Source of the DNA: a virus
Strand: one strand, 5' to 3'
Length of the DNA stretch: 29,740 nucleotides
IMG/VR virus record: IMGVR_UViG_3300013138_000033
Coordinates: 1-29,740 of that record
A model generated the notes under the pieces. That model searched no databases. It saw only the letters and a list, made by a program, of their open reading frames with translations, and was not told the DNA's origin. Position numbers and translations under genes: made by a program. Numbering within the stretch: position 1 is the stretch's first letter; each line of letters starts with the position of its first letter. Shown in pieces: positions 989-21,100 of this stretch.

Positions 989-1614
989 TGCATGATGCGC
1001 TTATAGAGCGCGTCGGTTATGTCTAGGTCACGTTGCAGATAAGTGGTGCGCTGCGCCACGGACAGGCCGGCGAAGTCGGCCCCGCTGCCCAGCTTCGGAG
1101 GAAGGCCGAGGAAGCGAGCGACGGCTTCTAGCGAGGACGTACCCTTGGCCGGCGAGCGGTCTCCTAGCAACCACTCATCACGGAGGTCGAGAAATGCGTC
1201 GGACCAGTAGAACCTACCGATCCGTCGGAAGCGAAGCCGCCCATTGCATTTCACGCCGTGAAGCCTCGAGCGTGTCGCAATGAATGGCAGGTCGAAGTTG
1301 AAGATATTAAAACCGGCGATGTCTGTGTTGCTGACGATTCTGGTTTCCAGGGCGTCCATCACCGATTCAAGCAGTTCCTTTTCGTCGCCTTGGAATATCG
1401 TCGTGCCTTCACCATCCTTGATGCCCACCATGAGCACCTGCCCGGTGAGCGGCGACAGCGCGGCGTTTGCGACGTAGGCCGTGCGGGCCTCGTCAATCTT
1501 CGCGGCAACCTTGGCCGGGTCCTTGAGATTGCCAACTGCGACTGTTGTTTCGTCGAACGGCGGAAGCTGGTCCAGTGGTCCGGTTTCAATGTCAAATACG
1601 ATGTGTGTGCTCAT
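985..1614 (-). CDS. DEDDy 3'-5' exonuclease (DnaQ/PolB-exonuclease-like)
   Basis: The 209-aa protein has the three exonuclease motifs of the RNase H-like DEDDy superfamily. Exo I is VFDIETGP (D8, E10), Exo II is GFNIFNFDLPF (D108), and Exo III is YLQRDLDIT (Y192, D196, with Y-x3-D spacing). The length matches stand-alone phage exonucleases related to the proofreading domain of family B polymerases. It would remove nucleotides from 3' ends using two metal ions. The gene follows the Rad52-like annealing protein with an ATGA overlap, so a role in making or trimming single strands for annealing is plausible. No polymerase domain is attached. A proofreading subunit is the alternative. Confidence 0.85.
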   Translation of the reverse strand: MSTHIVFDIETGPLDQLPPFDETTVAVGNLKDPAKVAAKIDEARTAYVANAALSPLTGQVLMVGIKDGEGTTIFQGDEKELLESVMDALETRIVSNTDIAGFNIFNFDLPFIATRSRLHGVKCNGRLRFRRIGRFYWSDAFLDLRDEWLLGDRSPAKGTSSLEAVARFLGLPPKLGSGADFAGLSVAQRTTYLQRDLDITDALYKRIMQ

Positions 1615-3379: not shown

Positions 3380-3588
3380 GGCTGCGATGATTTGCGCCGC
3401 GACTTGCCATTCCCGTTTTTGCTTTGTTTGGTGGTTTCTACGTTTTGTTTCATTTCGTTACGGAGCAGGTTTTGGACTTCGTCAATCTGCAAAAATGTCT
3501 GGCAGCGGGCGAGGCGTTTCAGGAGCGCGACGATCCGGTCAAGGCGCCCAACTCGCTGCCAGAGATATTTGAGTTCGGTTCGCGTCAT
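3376..3588 (-). CDS. Small basic hypothetical protein, 70 aa
   Basis: This 70-aa protein has an amphipathic N-terminal helix (MTRTELKYLWQRVGRLDRIVALLK), a central helical part (FLQIDEVQNLLRNEMKQ) and a basic, disordered tail rich in Lys/Ser/Gln. I do not recognise it. Its ATG overlaps the DnaB-like helicase stop as ATGA, which argues that it is a real gene and probably made at a ratio tied to the helicase. A helicase accessory or DNA-binding role is possible but unsupported. Confidence 0.55.
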   Translation of the reverse strand: MTRTELKYLWQRVGRLDRIVALLKRLARCQTFLQIDEVQNLLRNEMKQNVETTKQSKNGNGKSRRKSSQP

Positions 3589-4892
3589 ATAGGAAGATCG
3601 TTGTCGCTCATGCGCGCGGGATTTTCAAAGCGCGCGAGGGCGCCGTTGAATCTGAGGTGAACTATTCCGTTTTCACCGTCCCGCTGCTTCGCAATGATGA
3701 TAGCCGAATCTCCGTTCGGGTCGGTGCGCTTCCGGTCAATGAGAAGGATCGTGTCTGCATCCTGCTCGATCTGTTTTGAGTCTCCCAAGTCGGACATTCG
3801 CGGCGGGCGAGGCGCCTTGTCCTTTTCGCTGTCCCGGTTTAGCTGCGCCAGAGTGACGAGCGCCACTCGGGTTGAGATGGCCAACGCGCGCAGCAGGCCG
3901 GATACTTCCGCAACCTCATAGGTGCGCTTCTCTTCTTTGCGCGTGGATTTTATCTTCTGTAAGTAATCAATCATCACGAGCTTGACACCATCCTTTCGTG
4001 CGCGCCGTCGGACCACAGCACATACTTGGTTCACGTTCATCCCGCCAACGCCGTCGGTAATCCAGAGTGGCGCCTTGTTGGCCTTCACCGAGAATGCGGC
4101 GAACTTCTGAAAATTCTCCGGTGTATAGCTGCCTTTACGGATCGTGCCCATGCTGACCTCGCTTCGGGCCGCGCACGCGCGCCGCATTAGTGCCTCGATG
4201 CTCATTTCGAGCGATATAAACAGGGTGGGGATTTGCAGGTCGTGTGCCGCGTGCAGTGCGATGCCAAGGCCCATCGCCGTCTTTCCCATGCTTGGCCGTG
4301 CGCCGATCACGGTCTGTTCTCCGTATTGCATCCCGTCCAGTTTTCTGTCCAGATCATAGAATCCGGTAGGCACGCCGGAGAATGCGCCTTGCAATCCGAA
4401 TCTCCGTTCTAAATCTGCCACCATGCGCGTGGCGCATTCCTTTCCACCAAATGTTGACACGCCGCGGACCTCGCTGAAAATGGACTTTTCAAGTTCCGAC
4501 AGCAACGCATCTACCTTGACTTCGGTACGGCCGGCCTGGGCGATGACCGACTCGCAACACTGAATCAGGCTGCGCTTTCGCCAGGCGTTAGTTATGTCGT
4601 CCACCAGAAGCGGCATGGCTCCCGGCGGCGCGCCGGAAGCGGTCAGCATTTCCATAGGCTTTGGCTTCTGGCCATGGACATCATTCCATGCGCGACTTAC
4701 GGCCCAACTGCTGACCTCCTTGCCTTGCGTTGCCAGCCGCTCGATCACCTGGAACACGTCGCGCGCATCATCCACATCGAACGCATCCGATGGGATGGAC
4801 TCAATCGCCTCAATCGCTGTTTCCAGGCCGCACTCAAGACACATGCCGATGAGTTCGACTTCCTCTCTGTCTGCGGTAGGGTAGTGGCTCAT
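3585..4892 (-). CDS. dnaB: Replicative DNA helicase, DnaB family
   Basis: This 435-aa protein has both DnaB domains. The N-terminal helical domain (about residues 5-110, starting ADREEVELIGMCLE) joins through a linker to a RecA-like ATPase. Visible motifs are Walker A GARPSMGKT (197-205), the FISLEMS segment, Walker B VMIDYLQ (306-312), LAQLNRD (348-354), and DADTILLIDR (378-387) near the arginine finger. It would form the hexameric helicase at the phage fork. I used the ATG at 4892 rather than 5090 because it overlaps the upstream stop as ATGA and the extra 66 residues are unlike the family. The adjacent initiator/loader-like gene supports a replication module. Confidence 0.93.
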   Translation of the reverse strand: MSHYPTADREEVELIGMCLECGLETAIEAIESIPSDAFDVDDARDVFQVIERLATQGKEVSSWAVSRAWNDVHGQKPKPMEMLTASGAPPGAMPLLVDDITNAWRKRSLIQCCESVIAQAGRTEVKVDALLSELEKSIFSEVRGVSTFGGKECATRMVADLERRFGLQGAFSGVPTGFYDLDRKLDGMQYGEQTVIGARPSMGKTAMGLGIALHAAHDLQIPTLFISLEMSIEALMRRACAARSEVSMGTIRKGSYTPENFQKFAAFSVKANKAPLWITDGVGGMNVNQVCAVVRRRARKDGVKLVMIDYLQKIKSTRKEEKRTYEVAEVSGLLRALAISTRVALVTLAQLNRDSEKDKAPRPPRMSDLGDSKQIEQDADTILLIDRKRTDPNGDSAIIIAKQRDGENGIVHLRFNGALARFENPARMSDNDLPI

Positions 4893-5788
4893 CGCAGTGC
4901 TTCGTTGAGTAGTGCCTGGTCGAGGTCTGCCTGTGTGATAGGCACTTGCGCCCGACCACCGTTCTGTTCTACTGCGTGCGCCTGGCGCCAGCGGTGTTTC
5001 CAGCCAGAAAGCGCGTTGTGCCATTTCCGCATTGGGTTCTTTCCGACCCGCCACCCGTTGCTTTCGTAGTAGTCGAAGAAGCGAACGCACTCGCTGTCAG
5101 GCAGGCCGATCTTGGCCCCTTGCAGCTTAACTTCCTCGATGGTTGGACGCGCTAACCTAGACGGTCGTTTCCCTGGCTCGGATTGGTTTCCCCCTGCACC
5201 CCCTTCCGGTACAGAAGCAGAAGCAGAAGCAGAAGCAGAAGCAGTAAAGTCTAACGAGTTAGACTGTGTTAGACTTTTGTCTAACGGATTATCTAACTTA
5301 GATTCAGAAGCCCTAGATTTCCTCATGTATTCGCACATGTAGGCGCGTTTATCAAAGCCGTTTCGGATAGCCCGGTACTTCGCATAATTGACAATGCGCC
5401 AACCCCAATCCCGGTGAGAGTCGAGCAGAACCAGACGCCGGCCATCCTCATCTGGGCTTCGGCTTCGAGGATCTGGACTTTGAAGTTTGGTTAGCGCCGC
5501 CATGACCATTTTTAGCGGCACTCGAGTCTGGGCGGATATGGACTGGGGTGTCATGTCCACCACTCCGAACTGGTCGCACAAAACCAGGAGGTCTTGGAAT
5601 ACGTGCCGGACCTTGTAATCGTCGGCTATGCTGGAATTGAAAATTTGGGAAAATACTTTCGCATACATGCTACTATGTTTTGAAGTCTCCGAGCCATCCC
5701 TTGGGTTGTTGTGACGACAGAAAACAACTGTGGATGTTGATTCCCCCAAGGGACGGGTCGGAAATTTCTGTTTAATGCCGTCACGCAT
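4889..5788 (-). CDS. Phage replication initiator / helicase-loader-like winged-helix protein
   Basis: Residues 41-160 (KVFSQIFNSSIADD, RHVFQDLLVLCDQFGVVDMT, then RDWGWRIVNYAKY) follow a pattern common in phage replication proteins, in which a winged helix recognises DNA. Then comes a low-complexity SASASASA linker and a C-terminal domain (PTIEEVKLQGAKIGLPD to NGWRVGKNPMRKWHNALSGWKHRW) typical of primosome/DnaT-like proteins. Together with the DnaB-like gene joined by ATGA, this suggests origin recognition and helicase loading. The ATG at 5788 has a GAGGTG Shine-Dalgarno 8 nt upstream. Family similarity seems to begin at M41 (5668), which lacks a good ribosome site, so the exact start is uncertain. 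Confidence 0.72.
   Translation of the reverse strand: MRDGIKQKFPTRPLGESTSTVVFCRHNNPRDGSETSKHSSMYAKVFSQIFNSSIADDYKVRHVFQDLLVLCDQFGVVDMTPQSISAQTRVPLKMVMAALTKLQSPDPRSRSPDEDGRRLVLLDSHRDWGWRIVNYAKYRAIRNGFDKRAYMCEYMRKSRASESKLDNPLDKSLTQSNSLDFTASASASASASVPEGGAGGNQSEPGKRPSRLARPTIEEVKLQGAKIGLPDSECVRFFDYYESNGWRVGKNPMRKWHNALSGWKHRWRQAHAVEQNGGRAQVPITQADLDQALLNEALR
5213..5242. repeat. AGAAGC hexanucleotide microsatellite
   Basis: Five perfect tandem AGAAGC units lie inside the replication initiator gene. On the coding strand they encode alternating Ala-Ser in the linker between the winged-helix and C-terminal domains. Because the unit is 6 nt, slippage would lengthen or shorten the linker without breaking the frame. 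Confidence 0.9.
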
Positions 5789-8427: not shown

Positions 8428-8916
8428 ATGAGACCCACAAATCCGTTAAACCAGCAACCTGAAGGTTATTCCATCATCGCCATGTCGCGCCTCCTGCACA
8501 TGACGCGGGAAACGATTCGGCGGCATGTGGCGAGCCTGACGCCGTGCGGTCAGCGAGACGGCAATCCGCTCTATCGGCTGGAGGACATGGAACAACTCAT
8601 GGCCAAGAAGCCGGACAAGTCGCTGCGTGATGAAAAGCTGCAAGAGGAGATCCGCAAGTTGCGGCTTCGCAACGACCGTGACGAACGCAAGGTGGTGCTG
8701 CGGGCGGACATTGCCGCGAGGCTGTTTCAATACGTATCGGCAGCGCTTGCGATTCTGGACCAGAAACTATTGAACGAGGCACCCGTAGCTTTGGAGGGAT
8801 TATGCTGCGAGGAAATCAGGCTGAAGTTAGACGCCTACATAGACGATGTGCGGGCCGAGCTTAACAAGCTCAAAGACACATTCCCGGAGGATGCCGAAAA
8901 GCTGTCCAATTCATAA
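8428..8916 (+). CDS. Terminase small subunit, Nu1-like
   Basis: The 162-aa protein begins with a winged helix-turn-helix (YSIIAMSRLLHMTRETIRRHV, then PLYRLEDMEQLM), as in lambda Nu1, which recognises the packaging site. A charged coiled-coil (KLQEEIRKLRLRNDRDERK) and a helical C-terminus follow, for contact with the large subunit. It is the first gene of the rightward operon and overlaps the large terminase by about 26 nt. There is no strong Shine-Dalgarno; CGCGCCTTTG stands just before the ATG, a 10-mer that recurs before the GTG at 11773. Confidence 0.8.
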   Translation: MRPTNPLNQQPEGYSIIAMSRLLHMTRETIRRHVASLTPCGQRDGNPLYRLEDMEQLMAKKPDKSLRDEKLQEEIRKLRLRNDRDERKVVLRADIAARLFQYVSAALAILDQKLLNEAPVALEGLCCEEIRLKLDAYIDDVRAELNKLKDTFPEDAEKLSNS

Positions 8917-10741
8917 GGCTGCCGACAGCGCGACAAAGCCGAAGTTCAACGGTCCAATTTATGAATGGGCGCATTCGAATGTTGTGTTGGCGCCGCCGAT
9001 AACGCGCACTGGCAAGTTCTGTATTTCTGGGTCGCGCCATTTCATAGGAATATTCGACAGCCTGAAAAATGTCTTTAGGCGCGAAATAAACATACTCAAG
9101 CCGGTGCGCGGAGGCGGCAGCCTAATCGGTGATGTGCATGTGCTGTGGGCAATGGCAAATCACGCCGGTCCGTACATGGAGCTTTTCCAGACTCAGGAAA
9201 TCGCAGAGGAGCACGCGGAGGCAAGGCTCATTCCAAACTTCCATAATTGCAAGGCTACGCGTGACCTGTTCCCCGACAACCGGCACAAGCTACGGGACCA
9301 ACAGATAGTATTCAACAACGGGCATACATGGTATTGCAGCGGCCCGTCAATCAGTAACCTGCAAACAAAAGGCATTCGCTACCTGCGGCTAGAAGAGGTT
9401 TGGATGTGGGACCAGGGCAAAGACGGCGAGGCGTGCGGGCGTGTTGGCGATTACCTGAAGATGCGAACAAGCAAAGTCATTCGCATTTCTCAGGGCGGGC
9501 CAAGGGAGGGCGTGGATATGGAGACCAGCGACTGGTATCGCAATTACCATCGCGGCGTGATTCACGAGTGGGAAGTCCCATGCCCATCATGTGGAAAATA
9601 CTTTGACCCGGTATTTACTGGCCGGCGCCCGGACGGGTCAGACTACGGAATCACCTGGGACAAGCATCGAACTCCGGGCGGAGATTGGGACATTCCGAAG
9701 TGCCTGCCAAGCGTTCGCTTTGCATGTCCGCATTGCGGCCACGTCATGCTTGACGGAGCCAAGACCAAGGGCCAATGGAACGACAACGGACGCTATCGTT
9801 CTCCGCAAGGAGACGGCACGCACAAGCGAGACTCGTTTCACTGGGAGGCCGTCATTGATTACCCGTGGGATGAGCTTGTCGAGCTGTGGTTAGAAGCCTG
9901 CAATGCTGAGAAGCGCGGAGACCTAAAGCCCAAGATTCAATTCTATCAAAAGCGCCGGGCCATGTTTCGTGACGAGCAATCTCTGCTCAGGGGGGGCTTG
10001 AGCCTCAAGCGCACGCCGTATGAAATCGCCTCCGAGTGGCCGGAAGAAAAGGGCCGGTGCATGAGCGTTGACCGACAGGAAGAGGACTTGTTCTGGTGGA
10101 CTGTGCGGGCCTGGAGCGCGGACAAGTCACGTCGGCTTGGATTCGGGAAGGCATACGGATTTGCCGCATTGGAAGAAATCCGCCAGAAATACAAGGTCGC
10201 CAAGAACAATCTATTGATTGACTCTGGATTCCTGCCCAAGGGGGACCACGGCGTTTATTCCGCATGCCTCAAATACGGATGGATAGCAGTCAAAGGAGAC
10301 CGGGCATATTCGTTCACGCATCGGCTGTCCAACGGAAAGATGGTTCAGCGATGCTACGCTCCACTTACCCGCGCCGACCCGGACGCCGGCACCGCGGGGC
10401 CGACTCGCCGCGAGTGCCCCCTGATTCGATACTCTAAAGACCAGATGAACCAAAAGGTTCAAGAGCTGATAGACCACGGAGACTGGCTTGAACCGCTCAA
10501 CTTCGAAGATGCGGAGATGGAGCGAGAATACAACATGCAGATGGCCGCGCGTGTGAAGGTCCGTGAGTATGCTGGCAAGACTGGCCAGCTGATAGTCCGG
10601 TGGAAGGAGAGCAAGAATGACCATGCCCGCGACCTGGCAAACATGCAAGTTCTGTTCGCGGTGCTTTTGAATGTGCTACCTGACCCAGCCACAGAACGTC
10701 TAACCAAATCAGAAAGCAAGGACGATGCACGAGAACATTGA
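8891..10741 (+). CDS. Terminase large subunit, GpA-like
   Basis: This is a 616-aa packaging motor with the order of lambda GpA. The ATPase part has a Walker A-like KPVRGGGSLIGD (70-81) and Walker B-like YLRLEEV (164-170). A zinc-binding CPSC and CPHC pair follows. The nuclease part shows MSVDRQEEDLFW, NNLLIDSGFLPKG with YGWIAVKGD, and WKESKNDHARDLANMQ, a GpA-typical ending. The Walker A lacks the usual GK(T/S), so it is a deviant form. The start at 8891 is preceded by GGAGG with almost no spacing; the longer frame from 8846 lies in the small-subunit gene and adds unlike residues. It should cut and translocate phage DNA into the procapsid. Confidence 0.88.
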   Translation: MPKSCPIHKAADSATKPKFNGPIYEWAHSNVVLAPPITRTGKFCISGSRHFIGIFDSLKNVFRREINILKPVRGGGSLIGDVHVLWAMANHAGPYMELFQTQEIAEEHAEARLIPNFHNCKATRDLFPDNRHKLRDQQIVFNNGHTWYCSGPSISNLQTKGIRYLRLEEVWMWDQGKDGEACGRVGDYLKMRTSKVIRISQGGPREGVDMETSDWYRNYHRGVIHEWEVPCPSCGKYFDPVFTGRRPDGSDYGITWDKHRTPGGDWDIPKCLPSVRFACPHCGHVMLDGAKTKGQWNDNGRYRSPQGDGTHKRDSFHWEAVIDYPWDELVELWLEACNAEKRGDLKPKIQFYQKRRAMFRDEQSLLRGGLSLKRTPYEIASEWPEEKGRCMSVDRQEEDLFWWTVRAWSADKSRRLGFGKAYGFAALEEIRQKYKVAKNNLLIDSGFLPKGDHGVYSACLKYGWIAVKGDRAYSFTHRLSNGKMVQRCYAPLTRADPDAGTAGPTRRECPLIRYSKDQMNQKVQELIDHGDWLEPLNFEDAEMEREYNMQMAARVKVREYAGKTGQLIVRWKESKNDHARDLANMQVLFAVLLNVLPDPATERLTKSESKDDAREH

Positions 10742-11159
10742 CCCAGCCGAACGCGTGTCAGTAGAGGACCATCCGGCAGACCACATCTGCGAGAGCTACT
10801 GCCACAGGTGCGGCTTCGCTGTCAACCCAGTCTGCCCGAACTGCCATCACTGCATCGAGGCGTCTGGGGGCGAGCCGGACAAAGCGGCAACCTACCGGAG
10901 AATAATGCTCATGCTGCGCAAGGCCAAGAACACGGCGCTCTTCATAGACGCATTCTTTCTCGCAACGGGAGACGGCCAGCTTTACGACGGCACCAGCGAG
11001 CAGAAGATTTCCCTGCTGCACGGCGTCACCAAGGGGCAGGTCAGCAAGCAATGCCGCTACATAGTGCAACAGCTTGGCCTTATCCCTTCGCGCTCAATGC
11101 GCAGCGAGGGCGCCGTTGAAAAGTTTAGGAGCAGGAATCACAGACAGCACAACACATGA
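10725..11159 (+). CDS. Zinc-ribbon protein with HTH-like C-terminus, 144 aa
   Basis: The first part carries CESYCHRCG and CPNCHHC, a four-to-six Cys zinc ribbon (C26, C29, C37, C40 as likely ligands). The second part is helical: RRIMLMLRKAKNTALFIDAFFLATGD, then SEQKISLLHGVTKGQVSKQCRYIVQQLGL, which reads like a helix-turn-helix. I do not know a named family. It overlaps the end of the terminase and is coupled by ATGA to the next gene. A transcription or DNA-handling role is plausible. AAGGA precedes the ATG. Confidence 0.6.
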   Translation: MHENIDPAERVSVEDHPADHICESYCHRCGFAVNPVCPNCHHCIEASGGEPDKAATYRRIMLMLRKAKNTALFIDAFFLATGDGQLYDGTSEQKISLLHGVTKGQVSKQCRYIVQQLGLIPSRSMRSEGAVEKFRSRNHRQHNT

Positions 11160-11749
11160 ACGAACTGACCACACTCACGCCGGAACTCGATAAATTGAAT
11201 GCTGGATACAGCAACGTCGGCATTTCCTTCGACGATGCGATGAGCAAGCACGAATGGGCGAGCATAGGACTTAAGCTGGCCATCGCAAATCAGAGGCTCC
11301 TGTGGTATTTGGCAGACTGGGCAAACTTCGGGGAGGTTAAATTCTCCGCGCTCCGCGAATACTGCGAGGCGCATGGGATGGACTACCGCCGACTGCGCTC
11401 GCTCGCAAAGGTTGGGGCAGGCGTCCGCATGGACCGGCGCAAAGACCAGCTTGATTTCTACTTCCACGCCGAGGTTGCTGGACTGGAACCTAAAGAACAA
11501 TCCAAGTGGCTAACCGATGCTCAAGAACAACACATGACCAGGGCGGACCTGCGAGAGGCAATCCGAAAGGACCTGGCGGAAGAGGATGGCGCGCAACGGG
11601 ACAATCCCCGCTTCGTCTATGGCTTGAAGTATGCCGAAGACCTCAAGGCGTGGCTCAAGCGCCAGCCGGCGGACTTCTGGACTCCTGAGCGCATAGACGC
11701 CTGGCACAAACTGATTCAGGAAATCGAGGCAGTTATTCCGCAGCCCTGA
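11156..11749 (+). CDS. LmbU-like putative transcriptional regulator
   Basis: The 197-aa sequence follows a pattern I associate with LmbU-type regulators: SKHEWASIGLKLAIANQRLLWYLADWANFGEVKF, then the YRRLRSLAKVGAGVRMDRRKDQLDFYFHAEVAGLEPKEQSKWL block and a helical LREAIRKDL. Key matches are W..iG, (G)DW.n(Y/F)GE, RR..L.F..HaEVA.L and WL. LmbU controls lincomycin biosynthesis genes in Streptomyces, and relatives are scattered in bacteria and phages. Here it stands inside the packaging operon between the zinc-ribbon gene and the gpW-like gene. A late-gene control role is inference. Confidence 0.55.
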   Translation: MNELTTLTPELDKLNAGYSNVGISFDDAMSKHEWASIGLKLAIANQRLLWYLADWANFGEVKFSALREYCEAHGMDYRRLRSLAKVGAGVRMDRRKDQLDFYFHAEVAGLEPKEQSKWLTDAQEQHMTRADLREAIRKDLAEEDGAQRDNPRFVYGLKYAEDLKAWLKRQPADFWTPERIDAWHKLIQEIEAVIPQP

Positions 11750-12048: not shown

Positions 12049-13679
12049 GACGAAAAACCATTCCCATCGCTGCCGCCTCGCCGGCCTACAAGGTGCTTGA
12101 TCGGCGCGGCAACGGCTACTATAGCGCCGCAAATACGCTAATCGAGTCGGCCACACAAACGACAGACCGGAGCTATATCTCACCGCTCGACAGGGACGTG
12201 CATCGAACGGTGTCTAGCATGGGCCGGCGCACATTGATGACGCTGGGCCGGTCGCTTTTCTGGCGATTCCCTGCCCTGCAAGGCATGGTCCTAGAGCAGG
12301 CCAACGTTGCAGTTTCGACTTACATCCCTCAATACGCCGGACGGAATAAGCCATGGGGAATTGATGCGGAGTCTGCTCTTACCGAGTGGCACAAGGTCAT
12401 GGACATTGCCGGCTGGCCATACGATTGGGACTCTTACATCCAATCGCTGGTCATCTCGCCCATTGTGGATGGGGAGGAATATGTCCTTCTGACGCAGACC
12501 GCAGAGGACTACCCGCTGGTGCAGACCATCCCGGCGCACCGCGTCGGCAGATACCCAAGCACAACCGGATTCGCCACCGTGCGCTACGCGGACAGCAGCA
12601 TGTGGATTGACGGTGTTCTGGTGGATGATAATCGCCCGTATCCCGCAGCGCAGCCGGTTACCTTCGAGGCCCAACTGATTGACGGCGTAATTGTGGACAG
12701 CTACTCCAGGCCACTCGCATACCGCGTGGACGGGGACCAGCCGGAGCAATACGTGGACATTCCGGCGCGCAATATGTTCCCGGCATTCTGCCCCATCGTC
12801 ACTGGACAAGTGCGCGGCTTCTCCCTCCTGGCGTCGTCAATCTTCGACTGGCAAGACCTCGCCGAGTGGAAGCGTTTTGAGATGCTGGCGCAGAAGGTGT
12901 TCTCGACGCGGACCATCATTGAGACCAACGAAACGGGGGACCTGGATGAAGCCAAGAGCATTATCAAAACCGCAGCGACCTACGACAGCAGCGGCAACAA
13001 GACCGACCTCGACGTGCAGAGACTCTACGGCGGGACCATCCAATACCTGCGCGCGAAGACTGGCAGTTCTGTTCAGGCATTCGGCTACGATCGTCCCGGT
13101 CAAGGTAGTCGGGATTTCCTCAAAACAACCATCCGTGACGCCTTCCGTGGCACCGAGTGGGATTCCTTTTTCTCGCTCGACCCGCAGTCCATAGGCGGTG
13201 CGCCGATGCGAGTCATCGTCGAGAAGATTAACCTCGTGGCAGAGAAGCGGCGCAAGCTGGTTCGCAAATGCTGTGCGCGCGTGGACGGCTACGCGCTCGC
13301 GAAGATGATGAAATTGGGCATTCTGCCGTGGGACGACGATTGGTATAAGTGGGAATACCAAGGGCCGGGGGACATCACGGCGGATAAGAAGTACGATAGC
13401 GACGTTGACCTGGCTGAAATCGCGCAAGGGATCAGCACGCGCAAAATCTCCTGTGCTCGCCGCGGCTTGGTCATGGAGGACGTTGACGCCCAGCGCGAGG
13501 CCGAGGCGGACAGCGACTTGACGCGCGCCGGTCGGCTGGCAAAGAAGCACGGCATCTCTATCGAGCAGGCTTTGGTTGTCCTGCGACCTCCCACCCCCAA
13601 CGCACAGATGCCGCAGGCCAGCGAAGCAAAGCCAAAGGCCGAAAGCATGGACGACAGCGACATAATTCCAACAGAATGA
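12039..13679 (+). CDS. Portal protein, lambda family
   Basis: The 546-aa protein fits the lambda-type portal family. It has an N-terminal SPAYKVLDRRGNGYYSAAN, WRFPALQGMVLEQANVAVSTY, ESALTEWHKVMDIAGWPYDW, an IVDGEEYVLL strand, SRPLAYRVDG, and the crown-proximal ASSIFDWQDLAEWKRFEMLAQKVFSTRTIIE. A disordered acidic tail ends in DDSDIIPTE. The protein should form the dodecameric ring through which DNA enters. GGAGG lies 7 nt before the ATG. Its stop overlaps the protease start as ATGA, the usual portal-protease pairing. Confidence 0.9.
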   Translation: MAVRRKTIPIAAASPAYKVLDRRGNGYYSAANTLIESATQTTDRSYISPLDRDVHRTVSSMGRRTLMTLGRSLFWRFPALQGMVLEQANVAVSTYIPQYAGRNKPWGIDAESALTEWHKVMDIAGWPYDWDSYIQSLVISPIVDGEEYVLLTQTAEDYPLVQTIPAHRVGRYPSTTGFATVRYADSSMWIDGVLVDDNRPYPAAQPVTFEAQLIDGVIVDSYSRPLAYRVDGDQPEQYVDIPARNMFPAFCPIVTGQVRGFSLLASSIFDWQDLAEWKRFEMLAQKVFSTRTIIETNETGDLDEAKSIIKTAATYDSSGNKTDLDVQRLYGGTIQYLRAKTGSSVQAFGYDRPGQGSRDFLKTTIRDAFRGTEWDSFFSLDPQSIGGAPMRVIVEKINLVAEKRRKLVRKCCARVDGYALAKMMKLGILPWDDDWYKWEYQGPGDITADKKYDSDVDLAEIAQGISTRKISCARRGLVMEDVDAQREAEADSDLTRAGRLAKKHGISIEQALVVLRPPTPNAQMPQASEAKPKAESMDDSDIIPTE

Positions 13680-14476
13680 AGGCTTACCCTACGATCATAG
13701 CGAAATTGTTTTACGAGCCGCTCGTCATCACGCGCGCGAAACATTGGGCCATTTGGAAAGTGCTGGAATCGAAGATTAGCGGGCAGGTTGCGCTGCCCGA
13801 CCTGGAGAGCGACGAGGACGAGGACAAGCCGGAATGGTGCATCGCCGGGACCGACGCAATCATTCCCATTCACGGCATTCTGGGCAAGCACCTGTCCGGC
13901 ATGGAGATGGCCAGCGGCGGCTGCGACGTGGCGCAAGTCGGCGCCCAGGTTGACGAGGCAATGTCTGATGACCGTGTCCAGCGCATCATCTTCGACATCA
14001 ATTCACCCGGCGGAACGGTGACCGGCATCCCCGAACTGGCACGCAAGATTGCTGGGATTAGCACGAAGGACACCGTGGCCTACACCGATTCGGAATGCTG
14101 CTCAGGTGCCCTATGGTTGGCCTCGCAGTGCAAAATGTTCTATGCCTCCGAGTCCTCAACTGTTGGCTCGATTGGCGTCTGGTGCGCCTACCTGGATATG
14201 TCCCGCCGCATGGCCAACGAAGGAGAGAACCTGCAAGAGTTCTCCGCCGGAAAATACAAAACGATGGGCGCATATTGGAAGCCGTTAACGGAGGAAGAGA
14301 AGGGAATGATCCAGGCCAAGGTGGACAAGATTTACGCGCAATTCAAAGAGGCGGTGAACGCGAAGCGGACCATTGCGGATACCCACATGCAGGGGCAGAC
14401 ATTCGACGGGCTTGAGGCATTAGAGATCGGTCTGGTTGACGGAGTGGCAGATGGATTGTACGAATTGCAAGGATAA
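13676..14476 (+). CDS. S49-family capsid maturation protease (SppA/protein C-like)
   Basis: This 266-aa serine protease has the ClpP/crotonase fold motifs: AIIPIHGILG, RIIFDINSPGGTVTGIPELARKI, SECCSGALWLASQC with nucleophile Ser143, STVGSIGVWCAY, and SAGKYKTMGAYWKPL carrying the catalytic lysine (K193 or K195). It ends TFDGLEALEIGLVDGV as in the family. In lambda the homologue (gpC) processes head proteins and can include an internal scaffold. Here the scaffold-like gene is separate and lies beyond the transketolase-like genes. It is coupled by ATGA to the portal. I expect it to act inside the procapsid. Confidence 0.9.
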   Translation: MKAYPTIIAKLFYEPLVITRAKHWAIWKVLESKISGQVALPDLESDEDEDKPEWCIAGTDAIIPIHGILGKHLSGMEMASGGCDVAQVGAQVDEAMSDDRVQRIIFDINSPGGTVTGIPELARKIAGISTKDTVAYTDSECCSGALWLASQCKMFYASESSTVGSIGVWCAYLDMSRRMANEGENLQEFSAGKYKTMGAYWKPLTEEEKGMIQAKVDKIYAQFKEAVNAKRTIADTHMQGQTFDGLEALEIGLVDGVADGLYELQG

Positions 14477-14479
14477 CAA

Positions 14480-15145
14480 ATGAACGCACTTGATCGGCGG
14501 TGCATTGAAATCTCTTACCGGCACAGGTTGGGCCATGTCAGTTCCAACCTGGACACAGTTCAGTTACTTGCCGAGATTTACCGCGAGAACTCAGACCCGG
14601 TATTAGTATTGGGCAACGCGCACGCATCGATTGCGCTCTATGTGGTTCTGGAATCTCAAGGCTACTGTGACGCCGAAGAAATGTTTTCACGTCACGGAAC
14701 GCACTGCAAGCGCGACATTGGCAGCGATGTCTTTGACTGTGACGCAGTGGACTTGATGCCGCACGGATTCACCGGAACAATATGGGTGAGCGGTGGCAGT
14801 CTTGGACAGCCAGAGACAATCGCCGTCGGCCTTGCAATGTCAGATCGCAATCGAACGGTGCAGCTTGTGACATCCGACGGCGCTGCGGCGGAAGGTGCAT
14901 TTTGGGAAGCGCTGGCGTTCTCCGGCAAGGAGAGGCTGCACAATCTTAAAGTGAACATCGTTGCCAATGGTCATGCGGCATACCAAGACGTTGACATTGA
15001 CTATTTGGCCGTCCGGCTTGCCGCAACGTTCCCGGCCAGAATCTATCGGCCTGACAATGGATGGTATCCCGAATGGCTACGCGGCATCCCCGGCCATTAC
15101 GCAGTACTCAACGATGTTCAGTATGCTGAGCTAATGGACCTATGA
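14480..15145 (+). CDS. Transketolase-like N-terminal (TPP-binding) subunit
   Basis: The 221-aa protein reads as a compact transketolase N-terminal domain. RRCIEISYRHRLGHVSSNLDTVQLLAEIY corresponds to the GHxG entry helix (G18-H19). Next are VLGNAHASIALYVVLESQGY (H48), VSGGSLGQPETIAVGLAM (GSLGQ, 106-110), and TSDGAAAEGAFWEA with NIVANGHAA, matching the GDG-x(25-30)-N thiamine diphosphate motif. Gly is Ser in SDG here, but Asp133 and Asn163 are kept for Mg2+. Usual split N-subunits are about 270-280 aa, so this is short. It needs the following gene to complete the active site. It stands between protease and scaffold and was probably acquired as a moron. AAGGA precedes the ATG. Confidence 0.82.
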   Translation: MNALDRRCIEISYRHRLGHVSSNLDTVQLLAEIYRENSDPVLVLGNAHASIALYVVLESQGYCDAEEMFSRHGTHCKRDIGSDVFDCDAVDLMPHGFTGTIWVSGGSLGQPETIAVGLAMSDRNRTVQLVTSDGAAAEGAFWEALAFSGKERLHNLKVNIVANGHAAYQDVDIDYLAVRLAATFPARIYRPDNGWYPEWLRGIPGHYAVLNDVQYAELMDL

Positions 15146-15618
15146 GGAAAGCGTTTGCGGGCGCGCTTCACGCCGAGATGGAGAGGGATGGAAGAATTGT
15201 GATGCTCACCGGAGACCTCGGGTATGGAGTCTTGGACCGAATACGAGACGACTACACAAATAGGTTCTGGAATATGGGCGCCGCAGAGCAGCTCGCGGTC
15301 GGAGCCGGCATCGGCCTGGCGCTCGACGGCAAGATCCCATTCGTCTATTCCATCACTCCATTTCTGCTGTGCCGGCCATTTGAGTGGCTGCGCAATTACC
15401 TCCAACACGAGGGCGTTCCCGTCCGGCTTGTAGGGGTTGGGATGGATGACGACTACAAGCATTTTGGAATCAGCCATGAGGCGTTTGACGCGCGCGCCAT
15501 CTTAGGACTGTTTCCAAGAATCAGGACTCATTTTCCGCAAGACGCGGCAGAATTGCCCGGCATCGTGTCTTCCATGTGTAGCTACTGTGCTCCGGCATTC
15601 CTGTCTCTCAGAAGGTAG
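15142..15618 (+). CDS. Transketolase-like C-terminal (Pyr-domain) subunit
   Basis: This 158-aa partner gives the pyrimidine-binding domain: GRIVMLTGDLGYGVLDRI, RFWNMGAAEQLAVGAGIGLAL with the cofactor-activating Glu49, KIPFVYSITPFLLCRPFEWLRN, VRLVGVG, HFGISHEAFDARAI, and FPQDAAEL. It stops where a full transketolase would continue into its third domain, so the pair totals 379 aa against roughly 600-660 for intact enzymes. The ATG overlaps the N-subunit stop as ATGA, consistent with a heteromer made in equal amounts. The enzyme could move a two-carbon ketol or make a branched or unusual sugar or acyl unit; the substrate cannot be read from the sequence. Confidence 0.82.
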   Translation: MRKAFAGALHAEMERDGRIVMLTGDLGYGVLDRIRDDYTNRFWNMGAAEQLAVGAGIGLALDGKIPFVYSITPFLLCRPFEWLRNYLQHEGVPVRLVGVGMDDDYKHFGISHEAFDARAILGLFPRIRTHFPQDAAELPGIVSSMCSYCAPAFLSLRR

Positions 15619-15622
15619 TTTC

Positions 15623-15650
15623 GTTGACTCCCGGCCATTTCTTGATGGCC
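15623..15650 (+). repeat. TTGACTCC start-proximal element, copy 1 of a 22-bp exact repeat
   Basis: The 22 nt at 15623-15644 recur exactly at 22621-22642, each ending at or one base before an ATG followed by GC. Here GGCCAT-TTCTTG-ATGGCC forms a perfect 6-bp stem containing the start codon, followed by TTTAAATTTT, which resembles a weak terminator. There is no Shine-Dalgarno. Confidence 0.75.
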
Positions 15651-16154
15651 TTTAAATTTTACCGCATTGTGGCCGCGAACGCCGAGATTGACCGGCTGGC
15701 GGCTGAGTTAGCTACCGCCACCAAGGAGCGTGATGAATACAAAGCGTCTCTTGAGTCCAACACCTCAGAGACCGCCAAGGCCGCAGAGGAACTGCAAGCC
15801 AAGGTGGATGCGTCAACGAAAAGCATTGCGGACCTCGAGGCGGCCAGCGCCGCGAAGGACGCGCAAATTGTTTCCCTGACCGATGAACTTACCAAGGCCA
15901 AAAACCAACTGGCAAACCCTTCCGGCCAGATTGCAAAGCTGGCTTCGCAGCAAGCCGCTACCATTACCGCCGCCCAAGGCCAACCGGCTTTGCCTGCCGC
16001 CACGGCTACCTCACCCGGGGCCAATGGTGGGCCAACCTCCGCAGATGAGCTAATGGCGCAGGCACAGGCAATCACCGACCCGAACGCCCGCACGATGTTT
16101 TTCCGCAAGAACCGGGCCGCATTCATGGCCGCCAAGCGGAGCCGTTGTCAATAA
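15645..16154 (+). CDS. Coiled-coil scaffold-like protein
   Basis: The 169-aa protein is dominated by a long charged coiled coil (about residues 12-100; NAEIDRLAAELATATKERDEY to LTDELTKAKNQLANP). A flexible Ala/Pro/Gly/Thr region and a helical, basic C-terminus (PNARTMFFRKNRAAFMAAKRS) follow. Size, composition and position just before the coat gene fit a capsid scaffold, whose basic C-terminal helix would contact the coat protein. A TTG at 15624 in frame would add 7 residues, but I prefer ATG 15645. No sequence family can be claimed, because scaffolds are poorly conserved. Confidence 0.6.
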   Translation: MAFKFYRIVAANAEIDRLAAELATATKERDEYKASLESNTSETAKAAEELQAKVDASTKSIADLEAASAAKDAQIVSLTDELTKAKNQLANPSGQIAKLASQQAATITAAQGQPALPAATATSPGANGGPTSADELMAQAQAITDPNARTMFFRKNRAAFMAAKRSRCQ

Positions 16155-16175: not shown

Positions 16176-17072
16176 ATGGCAGCCTCAACTTATACAAACC
16201 TCGATACCGAGATCATCGCCAACAAAGCCCTGGAGGCGTTCGTCACGGAGCTTGCGCCGATTGCGGCGTTCTCCACGAATTTCAGCGCTGCGCCGGCTAC
16301 GCGCGGGGCCAATATTCTCGTGCCGCTCATCGCCTCCCTGACCGCGACCACGTTCAACCAGAACTACGCGCTGACCACCGGCAACGCGACAAAGACCGTT
16401 GTGACCGTCGCGTTGACCCACCACAAGCACGTGCCGATTGGCCAGTGGGACATTGAGGCCGCGAACTCCAGCGCCGCCAGCCTGGAATCGTTCGGCTACC
16501 AGCAGGGGCGAGCCCTCGCCGTCGCCGTGTTGCAAGATGTTTTCACGCTGGTAACTACGGCGAACTTCGAGAACAACGTGACGAAGTTCGCCTCGACGGC
16601 GATGGATGTGGCGCAGCTCCGGGCCGCCCGCTACCAGCTAAACGCCGGCAATGCCCCGATGTCGCCGCGCTGTTGTCTGCTGGACTGCGTCCCGATGGAC
16701 TCGCTCTTCGCTGTGACGAACTTCGTCCAGGCGCACATGTTCGCCGACCGTGGCGTCTTGCAGGAGGGTCGCATCGCCCGCGCGCTCGGCATGGACATGT
16801 TCGAGCTGAACGGGCTTTTCTCCACCTGCGTTATCGGCTTCGCCGCCCACGCGTCGGCCATCGCCGTGGCGATGCGCTATTTGGCTCCGCAGGAGGGGCA
16901 CAACTACCGCGAAGCGCGGCCAGTCACCGACCCGGCCAGCGGTCTCACGTTCGGGTTGCGCGACCACTACGACAACAACACCGGCACGCGGTATGTAAAC
17001 CTGGAATGCAACTACGGCTACGCGGCCGGCATCACTGCGGGCGGCTACGTGTTTGTGAAGACTGAAGCGTAA
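16176..17072 (+). CDS. Major capsid (coat) protein
   Basis: This 298-aa protein has a P22-coat/HK97-fold look: YTNLDTEIIANKALEAFVTELAPIAAFSTNF at the N-terminus, RGANILVPLIASLTATTFN, then ATKTVVTVALTHHKHVPIGQWDIEAAN. Next are the spine-helix region RALAVAVLQDVFTLVTTANF, DVAQLRAARYQLNAGNAP and RCCLLDCVPMDSLF, and a beta-rich C-terminus. AAAGGA lies before the ATG. Codon use is strongly biased to C/G-ending codons, as expected for the most expressed structural protein. The position between scaffold-like and decoration-like genes supports the call. Family membership was judged by order and pattern, not by a search. Confidence 0.85.
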   Translation: MAASTYTNLDTEIIANKALEAFVTELAPIAAFSTNFSAAPATRGANILVPLIASLTATTFNQNYALTTGNATKTVVTVALTHHKHVPIGQWDIEAANSSAASLESFGYQQGRALAVAVLQDVFTLVTTANFENNVTKFASTAMDVAQLRAARYQLNAGNAPMSPRCCLLDCVPMDSLFAVTNFVQAHMFADRGVLQEGRIARALGMDMFELNGLFSTCVIGFAAHASAIAVAMRYLAPQEGHNYREARPVTDPASGLTFGLRDHYDNNTGTRYVNLECNYGYAAGITAGGYVFVKTEA

Positions 17073-17077
17073 GCCGT

Positions 17078-17356
17078 ATGGCCTACTTGGAGAATCTGAC
17101 AATCGGCGGCGGCGGCGGATTGACTGCCGCCGCCGCCACATTGGCAGCCGCCTCAGTGACTACGGAGACCGTCACTACGGCCAACGTCACTACCGCCAAC
17201 GTCACCAGCCTTAACGTGGCAACCGTGTTGGCGTTTACTCCTACGGCCGACCCACCAGACTCAGCAGCGGAGGGGATGCTGTACGCCGACACGGATCACA
17301 AGTTGTATTACTACAACGGGACAGCTTGGAAGGAAGTTCAGTTTGTGAGCGAGTAA
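17078..17356 (+). CDS. Decoration or head-fibre-like protein with Thr-rich repeat
   Basis: This 92-aa protein starts MAYLENLTIGGGGGLTAAAA, has a repeat of TTANV units (VTTANVTTANVTSLNVATVL, residues about 32-51), and ends DSAAEGMLYADTDHKLYYYNGTAWKEV. That end is a small beta motif common in phage fibre and virion-surface proteins. Size and place after the coat protein suggest a capsid decoration or head fibre. The Thr-rich repeat has several NVT/NVS triplets, and the glycosyltransferase genes follow directly, so it is a candidate acceptor (inference). The repeat is encoded by near-identical 15-bp DNA units. The ribosome site is weak. Confidence 0.6.
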   Translation: MAYLENLTIGGGGGLTAAAATLAAASVTTETVTTANVTTANVTSLNVATVLAFTPTADPPDSAAEGMLYADTDHKLYYYNGTAWKEVQFVSE

Positions 17357-17432
17357 CTCATAGAGGTTGCCTGTATCCAGTAGAGATCGGCTTTGGATGC
17401 GGGCGGAACACAACCTGCAACCTGGGTTGTCT

Positions 17433-17467
17433 GGGCCGTGGTCCGATCACCACGGCCCTTTTGTTTT
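17433..17467 (+). terminator. Rho-independent terminator after head genes
   Basis: GGGCCGTGGT (17433-17442) pairs perfectly with ACCACGGCCC (17449-17458) around a 6-nt loop, and TTTTGTTTT follows. The 10-bp GC-rich stem with U-tract is a strong intrinsic terminator. It ends 2 nt before the ATG of the next gene, an unusual position. A second smaller stem (ACAACC with GGTTGT) stands just upstream at about 17408-17430. Confidence 0.9.
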
Positions 17468-17469
17468 AC

Positions 17470-19716
17470 ATGAGCGCAAAAATTAGTCTGTGCATGATCG
17501 TGGGCAACGTCGAGGAATACATCGAGCGCTGCCTGGCATCGTTTTCACCCATTGCTGATGAGATTGTCCTGGTCCGGGCCATAGGCGGACAGAAGCCGGA
17601 TAAGACCATCGAGCTTGCCCGCGCCAAGTATCCCGACCGGATCAAGGTGGGCGAATACAGGAACGCCAAGGGCCATGAGGATTGGCCGCATGTAGACAAC
17701 TTCGCCGCCGCGCGCCAGATGTCATTTGACATTGCGACCGGCGATTACTGCTTCTGGTGCGATTCAGACGACGTGCTAAAGGACGGCAGCGCAGAGCATG
17801 TTCGGGCCCTGGCCAATCGTGGTAACTTTCCCTGCTTCATTTTCCCCTATGAAATTTTCGCCCGCGGCGTGACTGTGCCGCGTGAGCGCATGATGGCGCG
17901 CGGATCTGGCAAGTGGGAACACGCCGTCCATGAAGCATTCGAGTTCACAATTAAGCCGGTGCAGAGCGTGGAAGACAATAGGGTTGTCGTGGTCCACCTG
18001 CCGATATTCACCGGCAAGAAAGCGAAGCAGGGAAGCACAGCCCGCAACCTGCGCATTCTCGAAAGCATACCGGAAGAGAAGATGACGCCGGGGCTGCTCT
18101 ACCACCTGCATGGTGAATACGTCTGCACCAACCAGATACCGAAAGCGATTGAGGCTGCGAAGAAGGCGCTTCAGTCAAAGGAACTGGGACCACCGGAGCG
18201 CTACGAGATCATGTTGAACCTGGCTCGCAGGAGCAAAGAGCCTGACAAGATAGAGTCATTCCTAATCGAAGCTTACAAGGCCGACCCGACGCGGCGCGAG
18301 GCTTTAGCCCTACTGGCTTCCAATGCGATGGACTACTCGCAACGGAATCGCGCAATGGCTTACGCGCGCCACATGATGGCAACGCCGCTTCCTGAAAAGC
18401 CGGCGTGGAACAGTCGCAGCGCAGCATACGGTTGGCTGGGTGACGAAATTTACGCTCAGGCGTTGCGCGTGGCCGGCAATCCTAACGAGGCGGAGCGGAT
18501 TCGGCGCGCATCGTTAACATCGAGGGGCGGGCCAAGAATCAGCCTCATTCACGCCACGCGTGGCCGACCGCATCAAGCATCGCTCGCGCGCAAGCTGTGG
18601 CTCGACATGGCCGAGAAGCCAGAGCAGGTCGAGCATGTATTTGCGATTGACGGCGACGATCGTGAAAGCCAGGCGCTAACGCGAATGCACCATGTCATTG
18701 TACCGCCGGGTGGTGGATGCGTGCGGGCGTGGAATGTGGGCGCATTCGCTTCTGGCGCTGGTGTAATTGTGCAAGTAAGCGACGATTGGACGCCGCCTCC
18801 GCTGTGGGACAAGCTGATCCTGGAACGCATTGGAGACCAGAACAAGAAATCCGTTCTAGCTGTTAGCGACGGACACAGAACGGACAAGCTAATCTGCCTG
18901 GCCATTTGCACCGCTCCATACTGGAAAGAGGACTGCTTTTTCTTCCATCCGTGGTTCAAGAGTGTTTACTCAGACAACTGGTTCACCGACCTGGCTTACA
19001 GCCGAGGCGCAGTCATCGAGGCGCGGGACTTGGTGTTTGAGCACTCTCATCCGGCATTCGGCACGGCGACGATGGACCGGACGTATGAGCAACAGAACTC
19101 ACCAGAACGCTACAAAGAAGGACTTGAACTTTATGAACGACTAAAGTCCGGCAAAGACTGGTCGTCCTGCCACGGTTGGTTTGACTACTACTATTTTTAC
19201 GACAACATCGCCGGACTACTGAAGGATGGCCAGAGTGTGGCAGAGGTTGGCGTGTGGATGGGCCGCAGCATCATCTACCTGGCGCAGGCTCTCAAGCGCA
19301 TGGGCAAGCGTGTCAGGCTCTACGCGGTGGACTCATTCGAGGGAGAGAAAGGAGAGCAGGAACAGTTGAAGCGCCTTGCCGATGCCGGAGGAAACTTGAG
19401 AGCAGTGTTCGAGGCGAACATCAAGCGCTGCGAGGTTGACGGCATGATTGAGATCATCGCCGGGGACAGCGCCGAAAGCGCAAGCAAGATTCCCGGCGGC
19501 TCGCTGGCGTTCTGTTTCATTGACGCCGCGCACGACTACGCGAGCGTCAAGCGCGACATTCTTGCTTGGACTCCAAAGCTTATGCCGGGCGGAATCATAG
19601 CCGGACATGATGCCCGGGCCCAGGGAGTGCGAAGTGGCGTAATTGACACGCTCATCAAGCCGGAGTTCGCCGGCTGCATTTGGGCGTCGGAAATCAAGGC
19701 GCCTGTCCTTCCGTGA
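17470..19716 (+). CDS. Glycosyltransferase-helical-glycosyltransferase-methyltransferase fusion
   Basis: This 748-aa fusion has four parts. Residues 1-190 are a GT2-type transferase: KISLCMIVGNVEEYIERCLASF, ADEIVLV, and YCFWCDSDD holding the DxD (D98-D100). About 195-345 is helical and TPR-like (YHLHGEYVCTNQIPKAIEAAKKAL). From 355 a second GT2-like domain reads ISLIHATRGRPHQASLARKLWL, PGGGCVRAWNVGAFASGAGVIVQVSDDWTPP. From about 575 a class I methyltransferase (Methyltransf_24-like) shows VAEVGVWMGRSIIYLA, VRLYAVDSFEG, and FIDAAHDYASVKRDILAW then GGIIAGHD. It likely builds and methylates a glycan. The start at 17470 lies directly behind the terminator and lacks a Shine-Dalgarno; the frame from 17326 would read through the terminator. 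Confidence 0.85.
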   Translation: MSAKISLCMIVGNVEEYIERCLASFSPIADEIVLVRAIGGQKPDKTIELARAKYPDRIKVGEYRNAKGHEDWPHVDNFAAARQMSFDIATGDYCFWCDSDDVLKDGSAEHVRALANRGNFPCFIFPYEIFARGVTVPRERMMARGSGKWEHAVHEAFEFTIKPVQSVEDNRVVVVHLPIFTGKKAKQGSTARNLRILESIPEEKMTPGLLYHLHGEYVCTNQIPKAIEAAKKALQSKELGPPERYEIMLNLARRSKEPDKIESFLIEAYKADPTRREALALLASNAMDYSQRNRAMAYARHMMATPLPEKPAWNSRSAAYGWLGDEIYAQALRVAGNPNEAERIRRASLTSRGGPRISLIHATRGRPHQASLARKLWLDMAEKPEQVEHVFAIDGDDRESQALTRMHHVIVPPGGGCVRAWNVGAFASGAGVIVQVSDDWTPPPLWDKLILERIGDQNKKSVLAVSDGHRTDKLICLAICTAPYWKEDCFFFHPWFKSVYSDNWFTDLAYSRGAVIEARDLVFEHSHPAFGTATMDRTYEQQNSPERYKEGLELYERLKSGKDWSSCHGWFDYYYFYDNIAGLLKDGQSVAEVGVWMGRSIIYLAQALKRMGKRVRLYAVDSFEGEKGEQEQLKRLADAGGNLRAVFEANIKRCEVDGMIEIIAGDSAESASKIPGGSLAFCFIDAAHDYASVKRDILAWTPKLMPGGIIAGHDARAQGVRSGVIDTLIKPEFAGCIWASEIKAPVLP

Positions 19717-20507
19717 AAATCTCCGCCCTAGTCCAGACCTACAACGAAGCCAACAGAATAGATGGCTTCATGCGGCACGCCACGAAGTGGGCCGATGAGG
19801 TTGTGGTTGTGGACAAGACCAGCCCGGACGGAACCGCAAAGATCGCTGCGGACATGGGCGCCAGAGTGAACCTGATTCCGTATTCTCCCAATGGACACGG
19901 AAACTACAGAGGGCTTTGCGATTGCTGTAGCAATGACTGGATTTGGTTTTTTACTGCGGGCGAGATTCCGACGCGCAGTCTGGTTTCCATGGTGAAGCGC
20001 ACGCTCGACAGCGAGGGTGACAGTCTTGACCTGATACTGATTCCAAAGAAGCTTTACTCTTTCGGCATTCACGACACGCGCTCGCCGTGGTCAATCAGCT
20101 ACCAGCCATTTGTCCTGAACCGGCTGCGGGCCAAGATTCAAGACACCATCCACGCCAACTTTCACGGAACGAACGCCAAACAGATTGACTATGCGCCGGA
20201 CTGTTTCGTTTTGCACCCGACCCATCCGAACGTGGCAGCATTTCTGAAATCGCATTTCGATTACATCGAGCGCGAGGGCGCGGGCATCACTGACCCGATG
20301 CGCAAAATACAAGAGGCGGCGGCGATGCTTTCATATTTCGACTTCGGGAATGCGCAACCAACAGATCCACTATTCGGCCAGATGTGCGCCTGGCGGCTTT
20401 ACTGGTATGGTGTGCTGCTAGAGGCATGGGAGAAAATGCGAGGGCACACATCCGACGCGCACTACGCGCAACTGCGCAATGAAATGCTGGAGGCCGAATG
20501 GAAATGA
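19713..20507 (+). CDS. GT2-family glycosyltransferase
   Basis: The 264-aa protein begins with a GTG at 19713 that overlaps the previous stop as GTGA (KISALVQTYNEANRIDGFMRH). The next parts are WADEVVVVDKTSPDGTAKIA, then NDWIWFFTAGEIPTRSLV where a DxD would be expected; here it reads FFTAGEIP, so the usual acidic pair is lost. The rest (SYQPFVLNRLRAKIQDTIHANFHG, DYAPDCFVLHPTHPN, FLKSHFDYIERE) follows GT2 enzymes of surface-glycan clusters. The missing DxD means it may use other ligands or be inactive. Coupled to the upstream fusion enzyme, it probably adds the next sugar. Confidence 0.78.
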   Translation: MKISALVQTYNEANRIDGFMRHATKWADEVVVVDKTSPDGTAKIAADMGARVNLIPYSPNGHGNYRGLCDCCSNDWIWFFTAGEIPTRSLVSMVKRTLDSEGDSLDLILIPKKLYSFGIHDTRSPWSISYQPFVLNRLRAKIQDTIHANFHGTNAKQIDYAPDCFVLHPTHPNVAAFLKSHFDYIEREGAGITDPMRKIQEAAAMLSYFDFGNAQPTDPLFGQMCAWRLYWYGVLLEAWEKMRGHTSDAHYAQLRNEMLEAEWK

Positions 20508-21100
20508 ACCAATCACCGGAGCCGATGTTATCTGTGCTGACCCCGGCAGTGCCAAGCCGAATGGCAAACCTTGCGGCTCTCTGCTGTGAGCTGCAAAAGC
20601 AGATTGGCGACGGGCCGGTTGAGCACCTCGTCTTGCTCGACAACCGCAAGCGGACAGTGGGAGAAAAACGAGACGCCCTGCTTCGGGCCGCGCGCGGGCG
20701 GTATATCGCGTTCTCCGACGATGACGATTGGATTGCCCCGGACTATATCGAATCGCTCTTGGGCGCAATGAGCACCAATCCTGACGTGATTACCTTCCGC
20801 CAGCATTCTACGATTGACGGCGAAGAGAGCGAAACCATATTCCGGCTCGGTTCGCCAAACGAGCCGTTCAAGCCAGGCGGCACTCACCTGCGCAACGCCT
20901 GGCACGTCTGTGCATGGCGCCGCTCGTTGGCAATCCTGAGCAGCTTTCCGCCCGTCGACTTCGGTGAGGACTGGGCATTCTGCCGGCTGCTCTGCGGGCT
21001 GGCTGGATTGCGCGAAGTCCATCTTGACAAGGTTCTGCACTACTACAAGCACGACAGCACTAAGAGCGAAGCGCCGCCTCCGGTTGACACCGCAGCATAG
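20498..21100 (+). CDS. GT2-family glycosyltransferase, short
   Basis: This 200-aa GT-A domain reads MLSVLTPAVPSRMANLAALC, EHLVLLDNRKRTVGEKRDALLRAARGRYIAFSDDDDWIAPDYIESLL, with the DDDD metal/nucleotide-sugar motif near residue 75, and ends with FGEDWAFCRLLCGLAGLREVHLDKVLHYYKH, the ED acidic motif used for catalysis in GT2. Unlike the preceding gene it keeps both motifs and so should be active. GGAGG lies 5 nt before the ATG, and it overlaps the previous gene by 10 nt. It is the last sugar gene before head completion genes resume. Confidence 0.85.
   Translation: MEMNQSPEPMLSVLTPAVPSRMANLAALCCELQKQIGDGPVEHLVLLDNRKRTVGEKRDALLRAARGRYIAFSDDDDWIAPDYIESLLGAMSTNPDVITFRQHSTIDGEESETIFRLGSPNEPFKPGGTHLRNAWHVCAWRRSLAILSSFPPVDFGEDWAFCRLLCGLAGLREVHLDKVLHYYKHDSTKSEAPPPVDTAA

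Follow-up and report, generated by a model that had tools for sequence, protein, structure and literature searches.

The closest described counterpart of the enzyme considered here, in both sequence and fold, is the split transketolase (TK) of C. hydrogenoformans (PDB 6yak/6yaj). Its PP and Pyr domains lie on separate chains, and its second chain also bears the TKC domain (residues 164-312), a domain included in the definition of the TK-like group (PMC7661550). The split-gene TKs of miharamycin and amipurimycin are proposed, from a gene-cluster argument, to transfer a hydroxyacetyl unit to a keto sugar (PMC12247030), and in the yersiniose route a two-carbon branch is added by YerE (PMC12247030). 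A 2025 review describes ketone-accepting TKs as proposed but not yet shown (PMC12247030). Our literature search, which covered few subscription papers, brought up no description of a two-domain TK.

We analyzed 29,740 nucleotides of viral DNA (the window; IMG/VR record IMGVR_UViG_3300013138_000033, positions 1 to 29,740) in which two adjoining genes encode the PP and Pyr halves of such an enzyme in a total of 379 aa (Table 1). A first-pass annotation made from the sequence alone had described an ATGA-coupled pair carrying SDG, ANG, GSLGQ and MGAAEQ motifs, lacking the third domain and standing between capsid protease and scaffold. Coordinates and motifs are confirmed (PP subunit: GSLGQ at residues 106-110, SDG at 132-134, ANG with N163; Pyr subunit: MGAAEQ at 45-50). 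The location is confirmed as well, with an S49 protease gene 5' of the pair, separated from it by 3 bases, and a scaffold-like coiled-coil ORF followed by the major head protein gene 3' of it. Nothing like a TKC domain follows the Pyr gene, the next ORF being the coiled coil, which has no specific family match and is 43% identical to an ORF between protease and MCP in the related contig L221.

Table 1. Features of the window discussed in the text
Feature	Coordinates	Strand	Evidence
Annealing protein, Mgm101/Rad52-type (likely replication block)	1611-2828	-	
Helicase, DnaB-type (likely replication block)	3585-5090	-	
Head maturation protease (S49), directly upstream of pair	13676..14476	+	phrog_53 2.1e-59; Peptidase_S49 8.8e-23
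TK PP-domain subunit, 221 aa	14480..15145	+	profile match 6yak_AAA 5.7e-19; model; residues
ATGA stop/start overlap of PP and Pyr genes	15142..15145	+	sequence
TK Pyr-domain subunit, 158 aa	15142..15618	+	Pfam Transket_pyr 1.2e-17; model; residues
Coiled-coil, scaffold-like ORF, directly downstream of pair	15624..16154	+	position; coiled-coil matches
Major head protein	16176..17072	+	phrog_283 6.1e-22
Glycosyltransferase-methyltransferase fusion	17326..19716	+	Glycos_transf_2 4.5e-10, Methyltransf_24 5.2e-23
Glycosyltransferase	19680-20507	+	Glycos_transf_2 6.1e-08
Glycosyltransferase	20498-21100	+	Glycos_transf_2 1.4e-10

Placement in the transketolase superfamily likewise stands up to profile search: with profiles that include family members, the top matches of the two halves are the two chains of the C. 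hydrogenoformans enzyme (for the Pyr half, 6yaj at 4.1e-28). Pfam reports TK/E1/DXPS-type domains only, and none that would mark the decarboxylase class of YerE; the Transket_pyr match of the Pyr half passes its cut-off, while the PP half by itself gives sub-threshold matches only (E1_dh 0.0033, Transketolase_N 0.037). Transketolase is the best NCBIfam model for either half. PHROGs holds no family for the pair, its relatives there matching two families of unknown function weakly, and blastn with the locus returned no matches. Chance resemblance is excluded because, of the 35 columns with 99% or higher conservation among the other 101 compact pairs of its family, the pair retains every one.

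All five histidines of the donor-binding and proton-transfer set of E. coli TK (EcTK H26, H66, H100, H261 and H473) have counterparts in the window, namely H19, H48, H75 and H206 of the PP subunit and H112 of the Pyr subunit. The metal ligands D155 and N185 correspond to PP residues D133 and N163 (kept in 102/102 and 101/102 compact pairs), and E411, the glutamate that activates TPP, to Pyr E49 (102/102); these eight positions are almost invariant across the family. The phosphate-binding arginines R358 and R520 are represented by Pyr R2 and R158, the functional residues at either end of the subunit. This assignment rests on the structural alignment of residues 1-158 to EcTK 357-520 together with equal spacing to D381, which overruled a MAFFT gap at R358. 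The Pyr subunit ends at the R520 equivalent (Arg or Lys) in 82 of the 102 pairs and at most 4 residues beyond it in the others, whereas full-size split TKs run 142-159 residues past this point; between the N185 and H261 equivalents compact pairs have 43 residues instead of 76.

Two other positions depart from the classical enzyme. H461 of classical TK helps phosphate binding; its equivalent is G100 in the window and Gly in every compact pair, a point against the ketol-transferase reading favored below. At the D469 equivalent the window has F108, and the 102 pairs divide into Leu (59), Asp (39) and Phe (2, the window and the locus L027); in E. coli TK, changes at D469 widen the acceptor pocket for bulkier aldehydes (PMC5073344). 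With no TKC domain, no H461 and, in the window's case, no D469, the pair is not a canonical TK, although by the features that define the group it would be expected to work like one. We regard it as very likely that the pair belongs to the TK group of TPP enzymes, lacking TKC but with intact catalytic residues.

AlphaFold models of the single chains, built from alignments of relatives, have a mean pLDDT of 88.5 (PP) and 95.7 (Pyr). The PP model superimposes on 6yak over 202 residues (Z 21.4, rmsd 2.2) and on E. coli TK 6-276; its matches to TK (Z 21.4 and 19-20) are better than those to DXPS (Z 16-17). The Pyr model fits E. coli TK 357-520 with rmsd 1.6 and Z about 20, its match to DXPS (Z 23.9) being slightly above those to TK (about 20-22). 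An insertion of 17 aa specific to the window (within PP residues about 78-100) lies beside H75 and includes a stretch of low model confidence (82-95).

In viral contigs, two profile scans recovered 168 Pyr and 253 PP relatives; a genome collection added 29. Adjacent pairs number 173, with a 4-base gene overlap in 93. Of these 173, 16 are full-size split TKs, found only in the cellular collection, with a PP chain of about 273 aa and a second chain, Pyr plus TKC, of about 310; the other 157 are compact, with about 205 aa in PP and about 158 aa in Pyr. Some contigs had been fetched twice, and removal of near-copies left a non-redundant set of 102 compact pairs, almost all from viral contigs. Compact genes also occur on 8 genome contigs, two of them long CPR contigs, and in a CPR phylum sample of 287 genomes there were 3 compact matches against 5 full-size ones. 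The family is enriched in viruses without being confined to them. The compact pairs form one clade, set apart with full support from the full-size bacterial pairs. Within it the window groups with L065, L088, L089 and L091, but its end branch is the longest of all and its exact place is unsure.

The search for paired short TK genes suggested in the first-pass annotation thus yields a sizeable family, and the uniqueness implied by the accompanying remark, that no described phage with a compact two-subunit TK in the head module was known, is not supported in view of the many viral relatives, some CPR pairs and the "putative transketolase" ORFs of Campylobacter phage CP21, the only isolated phage in which we found TK-like halves. 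In INPHARED, tblastn with the pair revealed no compact pair, Pyr matches staying below 32% identity, and a viral fold search gave no credible match beyond CP21. A match in Acinetobacter phage MD-2021a (L194, CAKLQH020000010.1) was rejected as bacterial DNA, a full-size split TK near metH, pitA and galM; the record is likely a misfiled bacterial contig.

The surroundings of the family are rich in sugar genes. A gene of the SDR cluster (NDP-sugar dehydratase, epimerase or reductase) lies at most 5 genes away in 97 of the 102 pairs. On the branch with Leu at the D469 position, a dTDP-glucose-4,6-dehydratase-like gene (54/59), RfbH (51/59) and an RmlD/Fcl-like reductase (54/59) recur, which is the yersiniose gene set with TK standing where YerE would be; the Asp branch has a shorter SDR in 37 of 39 loci and RfbH in one. 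The RfbH match, at 459.8 bits, exceeds the curated cut-off of 423. The 4,6-dehydratase-like gene scores under the NCBI equivalog cut-off, and its nucleotide is therefore assigned only tentatively. Association of Leu with RfbH is strong by Fisher's test (4e-15, kinship ignored), but because the tree offers only about three independent contrasts we do not use it as proof. Cellular full-size split TKs (L176, L178, L179 and L190) also lie near RfbH, so that such neighbors are not exclusively viral.

Behind the other pair with Phe at the D469 position (L027:7361-12075) lie an acetolactate-synthase-like ORF (8486-10270), a PanB-like ORF (10271-11203) and a reductase, apparently bringing two TPP enzymes and an aldolase-type enzyme, named by eye and without a profile, into a single viral sugar cluster. 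A major capsid gene is near in 12 of the 102 pairs, all Asp-type loci at most 5 genes from an N4-type MCP, in the order capsid, fiber-like gene, SDR, TK pair, FkbM-type methyltransferase, glycosyltransferases. The head-module location that had been thought unexpected for a metabolic gene is real, but closeness to capsid genes is a recurrent feature of the family. Behind the TK pair, some capsid-proximal cassettes (L100:9287-11036 and L103:9419-11195) also have an asparagine-synthetase-like ORF, an HldE/TagD-type nucleotidyltransferase (phrog_7878) and an ORF that may be LicD-like.

In the phage of the window, the pair is best explained by later insertion into a head module with glycan genes already in place, since related phages lack it at this site yet keep the downstream glycosyltransferase-methyltransferase genes. 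Between protease and capsid gene, the 16 related contigs in which both were found (capsid identity about 60%) have no TK gene; L221 (portal 72%) passes from protease to scaffold within 55 bases, and a Pyr gene is absent from the available sequence of nine of those related records. The fusion follows the capsid gene, at 52-58% identity, in most related contigs without TK. Related phage contigs of freshwater type that have no TK also retain the fusion and the second glycosyltransferase, and the whole segment 17326-21100 is by itself a candidate virion glycosylation module. Loci taken from the related contigs have no SDR of the modeled types. Among the window proteins tested there is no dehydratase or epimerase, unlike the 97 relatives with sugar-nucleotide genes, and the acceptor would therefore need to be supplied by the host or by sequence still missing from this linear record, which may be a fragment.

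The reading we favor, as rather probable, is that the pair is active as a minimal ketol transferase and modifies a sugar used to glycosylate the virion or a surface. The two subunits, cut down to the catalytic PP and Pyr domains, would hold TPP and a metal ion between them. The two phosphate-binding arginines and the donor histidines would hold a ketose phosphate, whose two-carbon ketol (hydroxyacetyl) unit the enzyme would pass on to a sugar carbonyl. For the family the most likely acceptor is a sugar made by the neighboring NDP-sugar dehydratase, epimerase and reductase genes, and the product, chain-extended or C-branched, may be placed on the virion or host surface by adjacent glycosyltransferases; gene order suggests the virion. 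By its insertion between the protease and scaffold genes, the window pair would join a glycosyltransferase-methyltransferase cassette that the phage's relatives already possess. The family as a whole is likely to make modified sugars for glycans; that the window copy shares this role is less sure. Against the favored reading stand the window's lack of sugar-nucleotide genes, Phe at D469, the long branch and the insertion next to H75.

The first-pass annotation had suggested a two-carbon-extended or branched sugar. Tailoring fits the gene context of the family, and branching may be read from the RfbH-linked branch, though not from the window, which lacks the partner genes. A ketone acceptor with a branched product is a tentative proposal. 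So too is the fuller idea that virus-enriched two-domain TKs transfer hydroxyacetyl onto the ketone of NDP-keto sugars to make C-branched virion sugars, which would make them the first TKs without TKC and with a ketone acceptor.

An auxiliary pentose phosphate enzyme, shuffling ketol units among ordinary sugar phosphates for ribose phosphate or NADPH during replication, is how viral tkt genes of ocean viromes have been interpreted (PMC4053976). The intact ketose-binding residues with both phosphate arginines, and the absence of NDP-sugar genes from the window, would agree with it. NDP-sugar genes and glycosyltransferases surround the family in 97 of 102 loci, however, and the window pair sits in the late structural block, not among replication genes (Table 1); we consider this explanation unlikely. 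DXPS- or E1-like chemistry would instead decarboxylate pyruvate and move an acetyl unit, as do YerE and branching enzymes of the alpha-keto-acid dehydrogenase type. It draws on the Pyr model's slight closeness to DXPS, the E1-like two-subunit layout and an RfbH context that is also that of the acetyl-branched yersiniose. The PP model prefers TK, however, both ketose-phosphate arginines are kept, and the EcTK H100 equivalent is His in 101 of the 102 pairs, at a position that separates TK (His) from DXPS (Phe; PMC7661550), and such chemistry is very improbable.

The window copy might also be degenerating, or a non-catalytic structural protein in which the head module reuses a TK-like fold. Its position between protease and scaffold, its branch length, the loss of D469, the insertion beside H75 and the missing partner genes all point that way, as do the clearly degenerate TK-like halves of CP21, one of which adjoins a tail lysozyme gene. 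Both frames are nevertheless intact and translationally coupled, and every column conserved at 99% or more is kept, unlike in CP21_041 with its lost N-terminal histidines; a role of this kind is improbable, if less so than DXPS- or E1-like chemistry.

Study of an active minimal ketol transferase of this kind would reveal which part of a TK catalysis depends on: in the viral Pyr subunit, only the segment between two phosphate-binding arginines is left. Roughly a hundred compact pairs in these viral gene sets are candidates for a ketone-accepting TK, and their neighboring genes point to a keto sugar of the 4,6-dehydratase/RfbH route as the likely acceptor. If the sugar ends on capsids, it would point to chemically unusual virion glycans.

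Set against the described systems, the window pair shares its two-chain layout with the C. hydrogenoformans enzyme and differs in lacking TKC and in a PP chain about 70 aa shorter. The miharamycin and amipurimycin TKs belong to Streptomyces secondary metabolism, their function is proposed, and neither a virus nor a two-domain form figures there (PMC12247030). YerE, of CDP-yersiniose synthesis, attaches a two-carbon branch to C4 in a pathway with the 4,6-dehydratase, RfbH and reductase set also seen in the family, but it is a decarboxylase-class TPP enzyme using pyruvate, whereas the viral pair is of the TK group. The CP21 halves (CP21_041, 192 aa, PP-like, L223:25189-25767; CP21_104, 149 aa, Pyr-like, L225:6424-6873) are likewise short and without TKC; unlike the window genes they lie 49 kb apart on opposite strands, are degenerate (CP21_041 has SDA for SDG) and have no adjoining sugar genes, the PP-like one being that beside the lysozyme gene. 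Two-chain decarboxylases, such as the phosphonopyruvate decarboxylase RhiEF (PDB 9iz3), are of another class and a weaker match in fold and sequence, yet like the viral pair they consist of PP and Pyr domains only, on separate chains, and so provide a precedent for a TPP enzyme without a third domain.
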